From: Schleiferiaceae bacterium
GTDB taxonomy: Bacteria; Bacteroidota; Bacteroidia; Flavobacteriales; Schleiferiaceae
Direction: 5' to 3'
Assembly: GCA_022565875.1 (NCBI GenBank)
Contig: JAIULY010000011.1
Span: 1 to 33,684 of the forward strand
Length of the DNA: 33,684 nt
The notes beneath the pieces are model-generated. The model had not been told where the DNA came from. It saw only the letters and a list, made by a program, of their open reading frames with translations, and made no database searches. This document shows, piece by piece, positions 1 through 33,684 of the stretch. Made by a program: the position numbers and the translations under genes. Position 1 is the first letter of the stretch; each line of letters opens with the position of its first letter.

Positions 1-528
1 GGGTTGCCAGATCACCGGTTGTACCACTGGAGACAAACCATTTCGCTGAAAGAGAATCGGCGTATCACAAAGGGCACTGGCTACATCATAGCCGCTACCG
101 TTTTGCGTATTGTAAAAAAGCCTATAAGGGTCACAACCGCTCCATTTTGAAAGGAGCGCAATCAAACTACTACTACTGCCAAGACCCCACTCGCGCGGAA
201 AAGCAAGATGTGTCGAAACATAGTACCGCCCTATGGCCAACGGGTTGTTCTCAAACGCTATTTGAAGAAGTTTACTCAGATTTGCCGCAACGGGACTATC
301 GTCATTCTGGGCTATCAACTGTGTGTCAAATGTTGCTTCAAACCACAGGTTGTTTTCATGGTCAAAGCTTTGCCACTGAAGAATAAATTGAGATTGGGGC
401 ACAAAAGAAACCCTGAGTTCCTGTCCCAATTTGGTGGGGAAACTCAGGGCTTTTGCACTTTCTAATACAATGTATTCGCCAGTTAATAACAGTTTTCCGT
501 TAGCTTGAAAACTCTTGGCGTATTCCAT
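1..528 (-). CDS. GYDIA-type GHMP kinase, N-terminal part (cut by window edge)
   Basis: Reading the minus strand from the ATG at 528 gives 176 uninterrupted codons to base 1, so the 3' end lies outside the window. The product starts MEYAKSFQANGKLLLTGEYIVLE, the usual GHMP-kinase opening strand, and carries the ATP-binding glycine/serine loop GLGSSSSLIALL around residues 118-129 and an SGYDVA motif further on. GHMP kinases phosphorylate small metabolites such as mevalonate or phosphomevalonate. Bacteroidota commonly carry such a kinase beside HMG-CoA reductase, and here mvaA ends only 18 bp upstream on the same strand, so the two are probably co-transcribed. A role in the mevalonate pathway is therefore likely, but the exact substrate cannot be read from the sequence. 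Confidence 0.85.
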   Translation of the reverse strand, partial: MEYAKSFQANGKLLLTGEYIVLESAKALSFPTKLGQELRVSFVPQSQFILQWQSFDHENNLWFEATFDTQLIAQNDDSPVAANLSKLLQIAFENNPLAIGRYYVSTHLAFPREWGLGSSSSLIALLSKWSGCDPYRLFYNTQNGSGYDVASALCDTPILFQRNGLSPVVQPVIWQP

Positions 529-2643: not shown

Positions 2644-4881
2644 ATGAAACGGTTTTTAAAAATTACAACCTTTGTCCTCTTGTTGATTTTCATGTCAGCA
2701 ATAGGACTTTTTTTTGCTGTAAAATGGGGCGCGTTTGGCAAACTCCCTACCCTTGCGCATTTGAAGGCGCTCGAAAACAGCTACGCCTCTGAAGTTGTGG
2801 CCACTCGTGGAGAGACAGTAGGCAAATACTTTACAATCAATCGTTCAGAAGTTCGCTTTGAAGAAATCCCCACGCCGGTCATTCAAGCGCTTGTGGCCAC
2901 AGAAGATGTGCGCTTTTACGAGCATTCGGGTGTCGACACCAAGAGTTTCTTTCGCGTGATTTTCAAATCCTTGTTACTGAACAAAAAGAGCAGTGGAGGC
3001 GGCTCTACATTGACACAACAGCTCGTGAAAAACATTTATGGTAGAAGTTCGGGAGGAAAAACCCAACTGCTCATCGACAAAATCAAAGAACAAATCATTG
3101 CCAAAAAGCTAGAACAAGTTTATACCAAAGATGAACTTATCACCCTCTATTTGAATACGGTTCCCTTTGGAGAAAATGTATACGGTATTGAAACTGCTGC
3201 CTATCGCTTTTTCAAGAAACCCACCAAACACCTAAAAACAGAGGAAGGCGCAGTGCTTATCGGGATGTTGAAGGCCAATACCACCTACAATCCCAAAAGG
3301 CACCCCGAGGCCGCCAAACAGCGACGCGATGTCGTTATTTCACAAATGCAAAAGGCACTGTTCATTGCCGATGCTGTGGCCGACTCGCTAAAAGCGCTCC
3401 CCCTAACCATTCGCTATCAGCAAACTACAGACGAAAACAACGCCCCGTATTTCCTAGACTTTATCCGTCCAGAATTGATAGCTATTCTAAATGAAATAGA
3501 GCGGGAAACAGGCGTGTCTTACGACTTACAAACGGATGGATTGCGCATTGAAACCACCTTGGACTTTGACATGCAACAAGCCGCCAATGCCGCTATTCGA
3601 AAGCATTTGAATGTTTTACAAAAGCAAGTTTACGCCGTTAGCAAAAAAAATCCACCTTGGAGCAAACATCCCAACTGGTTTCAAAGTCAAGAACAAAAAT
3701 TGGCAGCCCAATATCCCGAAGGAGCGACTATTCAAAAACCCACCAAGCTCTATCAATACGGGACCTTTACGGATACCTTACTTTCACCAATAGACAGTTT
3801 AAAGATTGCGTTGCAACAATTACACGCCGGATTAATCACCACAGACGTTAGGACTGGTGCTATTAAAGCGTGGGTGGGCGGTATCGATCACGCAACATTC
3901 CCTTACAATTTGGTTTTAGCCGAACGCCAGGTAGGTAGCACTTACAAGCCCTTTGTGTTTTTAGCTGCTTTGGAAAACAATTTTGAGCCCTGTGATTACC
4001 ACAGCAATGAGTGGGTCGCCTATGAGGAATACGACAACTGGGCCCCTCAAAACTACGACAAGAAATACGATGGCGCCTATAGCATGGGTGGGGCTTTGGC
4101 AAAATCCATCAATACGGTGACTGCCGCAGTGGCCATTTCGGTGGGCTTGGAGGAAGTAGTAGCCACAGCTTCCAGATTAACCATACCTAAGCCTTCAGAA
4201 ATCACTCCCGCTCTAGCGCTGGGCGCACAAGAAATTTCACTTTACCAAATGAACCAAGCGTACAGCGCCATTGCGAATGGTGGGAAATTGCATAAACAGT
4301 ATGCCATTGAACGAATCATAGACCGATCTGGCGCCATTTTATACAGCAGAAATCCCGTTTCTCCAGAAACCGTGATTGAAAAAGACCAAGCTGAAATACT
4401 GCGGTATCTATTAGAAAAGGTAGTAACCCATGGCACAGCAGCTAGTTGTAGATCGTTTGGTGTTAAAGGACATTACGGAGGAAAAACCGGTACCACTTCC
4501 AATTATTCGGACGGCTGGTTTATTGGGTTCAACAACAAGTATTCAACAGCCGTTTGGGTAGGACACCAATACCCCGTCTTATCTATGCCTTCGTATATCG
4601 GATCGAGCACGAAAACAGCGTTGCCGATTTGGTCGTACTACACCGTTTCGATGGAAAAATCCAAACAACACTCGCACGCTTTCACCCAACGGATGCCTGC
4701 AATTGGAAGTGACTTGTTACACCAATTGGACTGCGCTGATTTTATAGAAACCGATAGCTTCTGGGATTGGCTTTTGGACAAAGAAGACGATGGCGAACGC
4801 GAAATGCCAACCACAGACACTAAAACGAAGAAAAGACGCAATACAGGCAAAAGTTTTTGGGATCGTCTTTTTGGACGTTAA
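2644..4881 (+). CDS. Class A penicillin-binding protein (PBP1A-like transglycosylase/transpeptidase)
   Basis: Bifunctional peptidoglycan synthase: it polymerises glycan strands from lipid II and cross-links the peptides on the periplasmic face. In the 745-residue product, residues 8-28 form a membrane anchor. The glycosyltransferase domain shows the catalytic-Glu motif EDVRFYEHSGVD (E87), GGSTLTQQLVKN (about 119-130) and the KKLEQVYTKDELITLYLN / FGENVYGIETAAYRFF block. The transpeptidase domain has SxxK as S432-T-Y-K435, SxN as S488-I-N490, and KTGT at 614-617. The C-terminus ends in a basic, low-complexity tail. The ATG at 2644 is preferred to the in-frame TTG at 2638. All catalytic residues are present, so it should be active. 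Confidence 0.96.
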   Translation: MKRFLKITTFVLLLIFMSAIGLFFAVKWGAFGKLPTLAHLKALENSYASEVVATRGETVGKYFTINRSEVRFEEIPTPVIQALVATEDVRFYEHSGVDTKSFFRVIFKSLLLNKKSSGGGSTLTQQLVKNIYGRSSGGKTQLLIDKIKEQIIAKKLEQVYTKDELITLYLNTVPFGENVYGIETAAYRFFKKPTKHLKTEEGAVLIGMLKANTTYNPKRHPEAAKQRRDVVISQMQKALFIADAVADSLKALPLTIRYQQTTDENNAPYFLDFIRPELIAILNEIERETGVSYDLQTDGLRIETTLDFDMQQAANAAIRKHLNVLQKQVYAVSKKNPPWSKHPNWFQSQEQKLAAQYPEGATIQKPTKLYQYGTFTDTLLSPIDSLKIALQQLHAGLITTDVRTGAIKAWVGGIDHATFPYNLVLAERQVGSTYKPFVFLAALENNFEPCDYHSNEWVAYEEYDNWAPQNYDKKYDGAYSMGGALAKSINTVTAAVAISVGLEEVVATASRLTIPKPSEITPALALGAQEISLYQMNQAYSAIANGGKLHKQYAIERIIDRSGAILYSRNPVSPETVIEKDQAEILRYLLEKVVTHGTAASCRSFGVKGHYGGKTGTTSNYSDGWFIGFNNKYSTAVWVGHQYPVLSMPSYIGSSTKTALPIWSYYTVSMEKSKQHSHAFTQRMPAIGSDLLHQLDCADFIETDSFWDWLLDKEDDGEREMPTTDTKTKKRRNTGKSFWDRLFGR

Positions 4882-30940: not shown

Positions 30941-31065
30941 GCCTAACTCCCTAACTTCCAAACTCCCAAACCGTATGGAAAGATGCGCGGAATGAATAAC
31001 GCTTTGTTTCCCGAGTCTGGCGGGGACAAGCCCCGCCCCTACAGAATCCGTAATGCAACACGATC
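30941..31065 (+). repeat. Long direct repeat, copy 1
   Basis: 125 bp starting GCCTAACTCCC and ending CACGATC, closely matching 33308-33424 except for a short length difference near the start. It includes the perfect hairpin GGCGGGG-ACAAG-CCCCGCC at 31019-31037. The pair flanks the Nramp gene. Confidence 0.9.
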
Positions 31066-31119
31066 CTACCAAAACGGCCCGTGGAATGAATATCTCAACG
31101 TCGTTCATGCACACGCCTC

Positions 31120-31143
31120 GCCTAACTTCCAAACTCCCAAACC
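31120..31143 (+). repeat. Partial third copy of the long direct repeat
   Basis: This is the first 24 bp of the unit (CCTAACTTCCAAACTCCC core), 55 bp after copy 1. The hairpin part is absent. Confidence 0.65.
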
Positions 31144-32534: not shown

Positions 32535-32662
32535 TTGGCAAATAAAAACAGAAAGTTTCTAGCGAGCAAGTCTTTCCTTCATTTCTACGTTACCACTACG
32601 CTCGTAGAATTTTTGCGCGATACAGGGAAGGTTTGCAGAGTTGTTGATGCGTTTCCGTAAAG

Positions 32663-32757
32663 GGTTTAGAGGCGCTGACGCGCCTAGGTTTAGAGCAGCA
32701 GGCTAAGGCGCCTGCTGTTTGGGTTTAGACAGGTCGGCTGGCGCCACCCTTGGTTTA
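32663..32757 (+). repeat. 95-bp module, copy 1
   Basis: Four GGTTTA boxes enclosing three hairpin-forming segments. The same order and exact length recur at 32945-33039 with scattered substitutions, several of which preserve stem pairing (for example CAGCAGGC/GCCTGCTG against GCAGGC/GCCTGC). Confidence 0.85.
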
Positions 32758-32768
32758 GAGGGGGGAAA

Positions 32769-32803
32769 TAGGGATACGGCGTTTTCGAGAGGGGTTTATG
32801 CCT
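32769..32803 (+). repeat. 35-bp box, copy 2
   Basis: Matches 30753-30787 at 32 of 35 positions. It lies inside the GGTTTA array and includes its fifth box. Confidence 0.8.
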
Positions 32804-32944
32804 TCGGCTGGGGTTTATCGCTGCGCGGGCTCCGCCCTTGCTCGCAGTTTATTGCGTGCGCCTGGCGGCGCGCGCAGGTTTATGGAGTGTGTTTGGGGGA
32901 TGTGAGGGGGATTGTGATTTGTAGCGGTGTGCCGTTTCCCAATT

Positions 32945-33039
32945 GGTTTAGACGCGCTGATGCGCTTGGGTTTAGCTCCGCAGGCTCGGTCGCCTGCTGT
33001 TTGGGTTTAGACAGGGCGGCTGGCGTCGGCCTTGGTTTA
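32945..33039 (+). repeat. 95-bp module, copy 2
   Basis: Second copy of the four-box module, the same length and box spacing as 32663-32757. Confidence 0.85.
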
Positions 33040-33070
33040 GAGGGGATTGTGTGGGTGACGGAGGGCCTCT

Positions 33071-33101
33071 CAGTTCCTAGCCCTATCAGGCTAGGCTACT
33101 G
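33071..33101. repeat. Long imperfect hairpin
   Basis: CCTAGCC (33076-33082) and GGCTAGG (33089-33095) pair perfectly around a 6-nt loop, with an outer CAGT/ACTG stem (33071-33074 and 33098-33101). There is no T-tract, so it is not an obvious terminator. Confidence 0.6.
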
Positions 33102-33212
33102 ATTGCGCGCCCTTGGCGCTTCGGTTAAGTCTGTTTGTGGCCACTTCGGATAACTTTTTGAACCTTAGTGCTCCAAAAAAAAGTGTGCACCAACAAAATA
33201 ACCCCTCATAAA

Positions 33213-33262
33213 CCTCCGTGCCACTCCGTGTACAACTCTGTGGAACTCCGTGTTCCAAAAAA
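33213..33262 (+). repeat. 50-bp CTCYGTG repeat, copy 1
   Basis: Four CTCYGTG heptamers spaced 10-12 bp apart, ending TTCCAAAAAA. It differs from 33456-33505 at one base. Confidence 0.9.
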
Positions 33263-33307
33263 GAATCGTGTAATAAATAACCAAACGTAATCACCTGAAC
33301 ACGCCGC

Positions 33308-33424
33308 GCCTAACCTCCTAACTCCCAAACCGTGTGGAAATACGCGTGGAATGAATAACGATTCGTTTCCAGAGTCTGGCGGGGACAAGCCCCGCCCCTA
33401 CGGAATCCGTGATGCAACACGATC
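33308..33424 (+). repeat. Long direct repeat, copy 2
   Basis: 117 bp, the partner of 30941-31065 in the same orientation, with the hairpin GGCGGGG-ACAAG-CCCCGCC at 33378-33396. It lies between the two 50-bp repeats. Confidence 0.9.
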
Positions 33425-33455
33425 GGTTTATCACGCATGGAACATCAAAAATAAC

Positions 33456-33505
33456 CCTCCATGCCACTCCGTGTACAACTCTGTGGAACTCCGTGTTCCA
33501 AAAAA
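33456..33505 (+). repeat. 50-bp CTCYGTG repeat, copy 2
   Basis: Second copy of the 50-bp unit at 33213-33262, with CTCCATG in place of the first CTCCGTG. Confidence 0.9.
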
Positions 33506-33534
33506 AATCTAGATAAAAAAGAGCAAAAAACACC

Positions 33535-33565
33535 TTGTCTATTCAAAATTTTTCTCCTACATTTG
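33535..33565 (+). promoter_or_regulatory. Bacteroidota-type promoter of the last gene
   Basis: TTG at 33535-33537 and TACATTTG at 33558-33565 are separated by exactly 20 bp, a full consensus match. The start of transcription would fall near 33571, about 22 bp before the ATG at 33593. Confidence 0.75.
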
Positions 33566-33592
33566 AAATTTATAATCCATAACCCATTCGCC

Positions 33593-33684
33593 ATGAAAAA
33601 CTTGTACACTACTTTAACTAGATTTGTAAGAAGGGGGGGGGCAGAATCTTCTCCTTTTAATTCTAATTATTTTCGCTACTGACA
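33593..33684 (+). CDS. Start of a secreted-protein gene, out of frame at a G9 tract (cut by window edge)
   Basis: The ATG at 33593 follows a full promoter by about 27 bp and opens MKNLYTTLTRFVRR. A run of nine G (33633-33641) follows. As written, the frame ends at TGA 33680-33682 after 29 residues with no membrane or signal character. With eight G the frame reads GGQNLLLLILIIFATD to the window end, which gives a classic signal peptide (basic n-region, Leu/Ile-rich core). With ten G it stops at once at TAA. The gene is therefore probably a secreted or surface protein that is switched off or mis-called here. Phase variation or a homopolymer error are both possible. Confidence 0.55.

Follow-up and report, generated by a model that had tools for sequence, protein, structure and literature searches.

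Promoter, leader and G tract at the window end

The window (the whole stretch of DNA that was analysed, 33,684 nucleotides) is the entire contig C11 of an assembly of 312 contigs and 3.15 Mb that is 92.8% complete; the contig stops at the right end of the window. An earlier note had described, at this end, a promoter of the form TTG-N20-TACATTTG, an ATG, nine G and a frame of 29 codons, and each of these elements was present in the sequence. The features are as follows.

33525..33684, plus strand: segment common to the window and contig C216 (C216 minus strand, up to 4332), 97% identity over 160 bp
33535..33565, plus strand: Bacteroidetes-type promoter-like elements, with TTG at 33535-33537, a 20-base spacer and TACATTTG at 33558-33565; a consensus match only
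33593..33632, plus strand: start codon (ATG 33593-33595) and leader codons MKNLYTTLTRFVR, the predicted signal peptide n-region; identical on C216
33633..33641, plus strand: G9 tract, a slippery repeat that reads G8 at the corresponding position of C216
33593..33682, plus strand: short frame with G9 (putative OFF state), MKNLYTTLTRFVRRGGAESSPFNSNYFRY, 29 codons followed by TGA (stop 33680-33682)
33642..33684, plus strand: predicted hydrophobic core of the signal peptide (NLLLLILIIFA), read in the other frame, QNLLLLILIIFATD, with no stop before the contig ends; on C216 the ATG is in frame with it

The G9 tract was placed 13 codons after the ATG, in the 5′ part of the gene, and its unit is not a multiple of three. 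Translation confirmed that the signal-peptide core lies in the frame expected after G8 and that this frame is open to the window end, as had been claimed; 14 codons of the window's own copy are legible past the tract, and contig C11 ends 43 bases after it. The tract was unique in the window, and dinucleotide shuffles yielded a mean of 0.05 such runs, with at least one in 4 of 100 shuffles. Genome-wide, about 14 G/C runs of at least 9 were found versus about 6 expected under a simple base-composition model, and because this excess is only about twofold, the G9 run by itself is weak evidence. The case for a switch is instead carried by the position of the tract and by the repeats found at the same place in relatives.

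Inverted repeats of at least 12 bp were found neither in window positions 33400-33684 nor in C216 positions 3900-4547. An inversion switch resembling the invertible promoters of Bacteroides was rejected, since no inverted repeats flank the promoter. Dispersed intergenic repeats were observed at window positions 30950-31143 and 32640-33520 (for example, around CTCCGTGTTCCAAAAAAA); they have about 80 matches genome-wide, and repeats of this type sit upstream of several tract genes. A second dispersed intergenic repeat, the copies of which are 70-79% alike, contains G8 to G10 (L016, C15:3731; L027, C49:194; L032, C66:7365; L019, C22:23087).

The C216 copy and its two-gene operon

A DNA search of the same assembly detected the segment in one other place, on the minus strand of contig C216. 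The promoter hexamers and spacer were identical in the two copies, and the last 127 bases differed by one substitution and by the tract, which is G9 on C11 versus G8 on C216. With G8, the C216 frame stayed open for 1183 aa from MKNLYTTLTRFVRRGGQNLLLLILIIFA, versus 29 codons with G9 in the window. The C terminus of the C216 protein (residues 1115-1183) matched the T9SS type A sorting domain TIGR04183 with an E value of 1.7e-8, and a hydrophobic core follows RRGGQ, the signal peptide being judged by eye. With a predicted signal peptide and a C-terminal sorting domain, the C216 gene product is a T9SS cargo protein as judged from its sequence. This G8 twin, with its 1183-aa open frame and T9SS domain, supports the earlier proposal that a surface-protein gene begins with a contingency locus. 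Following the G8 frame downstream, which had been suggested as a check, succeeded in part: C11 itself could not be extended because the window end is the contig end, and the C216 twin, open to the T9SS domain, stands in for it. A continuation of the C11 path was not found elsewhere in the assembly.

Contigs overlapped by exactly 127 bases where this was testable (window positions 1-127 are identical to the end of contig C183), and in this the assembly behaves like a k=127 short-read assembly; G9 and G8 are therefore separate assembly paths. C11 and C216 may be paralogs or strain alleles. Elsewhere in the assembly, a contig end consists of 29 G/C (L055, C234:1-29), which two-colour sequencing may have produced as a base-calling artefact.

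Directly after the switched gene lies a second gene, encoding a small secreted protein with a QNLVxNxxFE start (L009, 2-871, minus strand), and on C216 its ATG overlaps the stop of the first gene (ATGA). The second gene is kept downstream of homologs of the switched gene in G030 (two loci), G017:C9, G002:C93 and G001:C7. Its protein had no Pfam match, and the switched protein had no Pfam domain besides the sorting signal and no solved relative found by sequence. An AlphaFold model of one homolog (pLDDT 65) was all-beta and resembled right-handed beta-helix enzymes and phage tailspikes only weakly, with no match at E 0.001. The switched protein may be an adhesin or a polysaccharide-active enzyme.

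Leader repeats in homologs, control genes and other loci

Scanning genome contigs with the C216 protein alone gave no match. Distant homologs with roughly 21-30% identity occur in other genera of the family, and a homolog profile was used that covers the shared beta-strand-rich region of the mature protein and is blind to repeats. Profile matches were obtained in 11 of 396 genomes of the order, 10 of these 11 belonging to the window's family, with the window's own genome included. Leader repeats with units of 1, 2 or 8 bases were present in 10 of the 14 homologs, either downstream of the start codon and ahead of the signal-peptide core or within the signal peptide.

G030: tract G8 (contig C68), tract C6 (contig C19), tract C9 (contig C334)
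G017: tract C11 (G017:C2), tract G12 (G017:C9)
G002: (AC)9 (G002:C93), (GA)9 (G002:C96)
G020: (CA)11 (G020:C106)
Octamers: CCAGCTCA x8 (G001:C7), ACACGCGA x5 (G069:C303)

None of the repeat units in these ten leaders is a multiple of three. In a further homolog (G013:C7), an imperfect octamer array is accompanied by an internal stop, and a leader repeat was absent in three (G021:C22, G018:C93 and G049:C1). As assembled, five homologs were out of frame, namely those with G12, C6, C9, (AC)9 and (CA)11, with the remaining repeat carriers in frame; the downstream frames of all five were intact over 550 to 790 aa. G017 and G030 correspond to the public MAG records JAUHWL and JAUICR, both "Bacteroidia bacterium", and two of the four G/C runs of at least 10 that lie away from contig ends in G017 precede homologs of the switched protein.

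A single fixed repeat definition, set after a first look at the leaders, was applied to homologs and controls. Within the homolog loci, the leaders, 3.5 kb in all, held 10 repeats, compared with 4 in the other 53 kb (ratio 38, P about 7e-10). As a control, 80 other T9SS genes of the window's genome, out of 105 sorting-domain matches, were examined at their 5′ regions. Approximately 71 of these sequences include the 5′ end, and under the same definition one of them carried a leader repeat, a marginal (AATA)3. A Fisher test of 10/14 versus 1/70 gave a P value of about 4e-9, and both P values are indicative only, given some dependence among the homologs and criteria set after the first look. The idea that such tracts are a general habit of T9SS genes was rejected, as about 70 others are without them.

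Other candidate switches were also recorded. Contigs C51 and C199 have a promoter and leader in common, 96% identical over 165 bp up to MNKFTLVGGN and a C10 tract (L030, C51:14442; L052, C199:4835). Past the tract the secreted proteins that they encode are unrelated, and neither is in frame in the assembly. On contig C127, a C9 tract lies ahead of a signal peptide, in frame, and in G002 the signal peptide of an unrelated T9SS protein contains a G11 tract, the gene being out of frame. Separately, a C9 run in a membrane-protein gene (L059, C17:29810-29818), at which the frame is broken, is another possible switch.

A probable slipped-strand switch, its rivals and known systems

Two tract lengths, two frame states, the T9SS domain, the operon layout and the same-site repeats in homologs were directly observed. 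Slipped-strand phase variation is a textbook mechanism, and contingency loci that work by it are known mostly from host-adapted pathogens and commensals. We consider it very probable that the window end is the 5′ end of such a phase-variable (contingency) gene, encoding a T9SS-secreted cell-surface protein, and that slipped-strand phase variation acts on the operon. One promoter would drive both the large beta-strand-rich protein and the small QNLVxNxxFE protein. During replication the tract would slip at the DNA level and reversibly gain or lose a G. At a length of G8, or longer by any multiple of three, the ATG would be in frame with the signal peptide, and the full protein would be made and exported (ON); with G9 the ribosome would stop after 29 codons, and the remainder would be neither made nor exported (OFF). 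The OFF state would probably take the second gene down too via translational coupling, its ATG overlapping the first gene's stop on C216. The repeat lies mostly in the signal-peptide n-region, where extra residues (Gly, Pro, Thr-His or Arg-Glu) should be tolerated when ON, and a frameshift at the tract would cost export and everything downstream. Counting against this reading are the three homologs that lack a leader repeat, the modest genome-wide excess of G/C runs and the fact that the window's own tract is followed by no assembled gene.

The earlier note had allowed that a homopolymer error in sequencing or assembly would look the same, in which case the tract would really be G8 and belong to an ordinary T9SS gene that is always on. 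C216 indeed reads G8 in frame, and the 29 G at one contig end may be a base-calling artefact. However, the G9 path is set apart from C216 by other base differences, and the contigs overlap by exactly 127 bases, hence each base rests on 127-mers; furthermore, (AC)9, (CA)11 and octamer repeats occur in homologs, in some of them with the frame lost, and such repeats are not homopolymer errors. We therefore judge an error to be very unlikely. It is also highly improbable that C11 is a dead copy of the C216 gene, a decaying pseudogene frameshifted once by the additional G. As this would allow, the frame of the window copy is broken and no gene after its tract is assembled, but, the tract aside, only one substitution separates it from C216 in the last 127 bases, the five out-of-frame homologs keep downstream frames of 550 to 790 aa, and the frame was lost at a repeat every time. 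Least probable of all is slippage of the polymerase during transcription or of the ribosome on the tract, which would yield several products in constant proportion from a single DNA sequence with no DNA switching. Transcriptional slippage is possible at homopolymer runs in general, yet at this position homologs have (AC)n, (GA)n, (CA)n and 8-bp units, and it is disfavoured because 8-bp units fit DNA slippage and not transcript slippage.

If slipped-strand switching is indeed at work, a switch site that was kept as its repeats were swapped (G, C, AC, GA, CA and octamers) would be evidence for selection on switchability itself, and phage or predator pressure on T9SS surface proteins may be indicated. 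More tentatively, the switch could be a module of promoter, leader and slippery tract that was duplicated and attached to unrelated secreted proteins, a possibility about which we are rather doubtful. Its basis is the leaders that C51 and C199 have in common, the 97% identity of C11 and C216, and the repeated replacement of the tract by other repeat types across genera. With such a module, an uncultured Bacteroidia lineage would possess a set of surface proteins, each flickering on and off independently of the others.

For phase variation in Bacteroides, a 2025 review (PMC11868660) cites DNA inversion, with invertible promoters and invertases. The likeness lies in the same phylum and in the on/off switching of surface structures, whereas the inversion described there is site-specific and the window promoter is without flanking inverted repeats. 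The nearest report found, on Ornithobacterium hominis, ascribes a "putative phase variation mechanism" to its FSD adhesins (PMC13183296). These are likewise putatively phase-variable surface proteins of a Bacteroidota species but belong to a different protein family and a host-associated organism. Our literature search turned up no account of T9SS cargo undergoing phase variation through short repeats, an absence that is suggestive only, as the search covered a minority of subscription papers. Close parallels are the translational contingency loci with intragenic poly-G/C or short repeats of Neisseria, Campylobacter, Helicobacter and Haemophilus (PMC5084427, PMC6321876, PMC2823697, PMC2651432). 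As in those loci, a slippery repeat lies near the start of a surface-related gene, its length modulo three sets the frame, and there are several per genome. Unlike them, the gene here encodes a predicted T9SS cargo protein in an uncultured Bacteroidia lineage, its homologs keep the site and vary the repeat unit (1, 2 or 8 bp), and the C51 and C199 leaders are common to unrelated cargo. The recurrence at one site with changing repeat types among homologs of a Bacteroidia family, together with leaders common to unrelated cargo, appears to be new.
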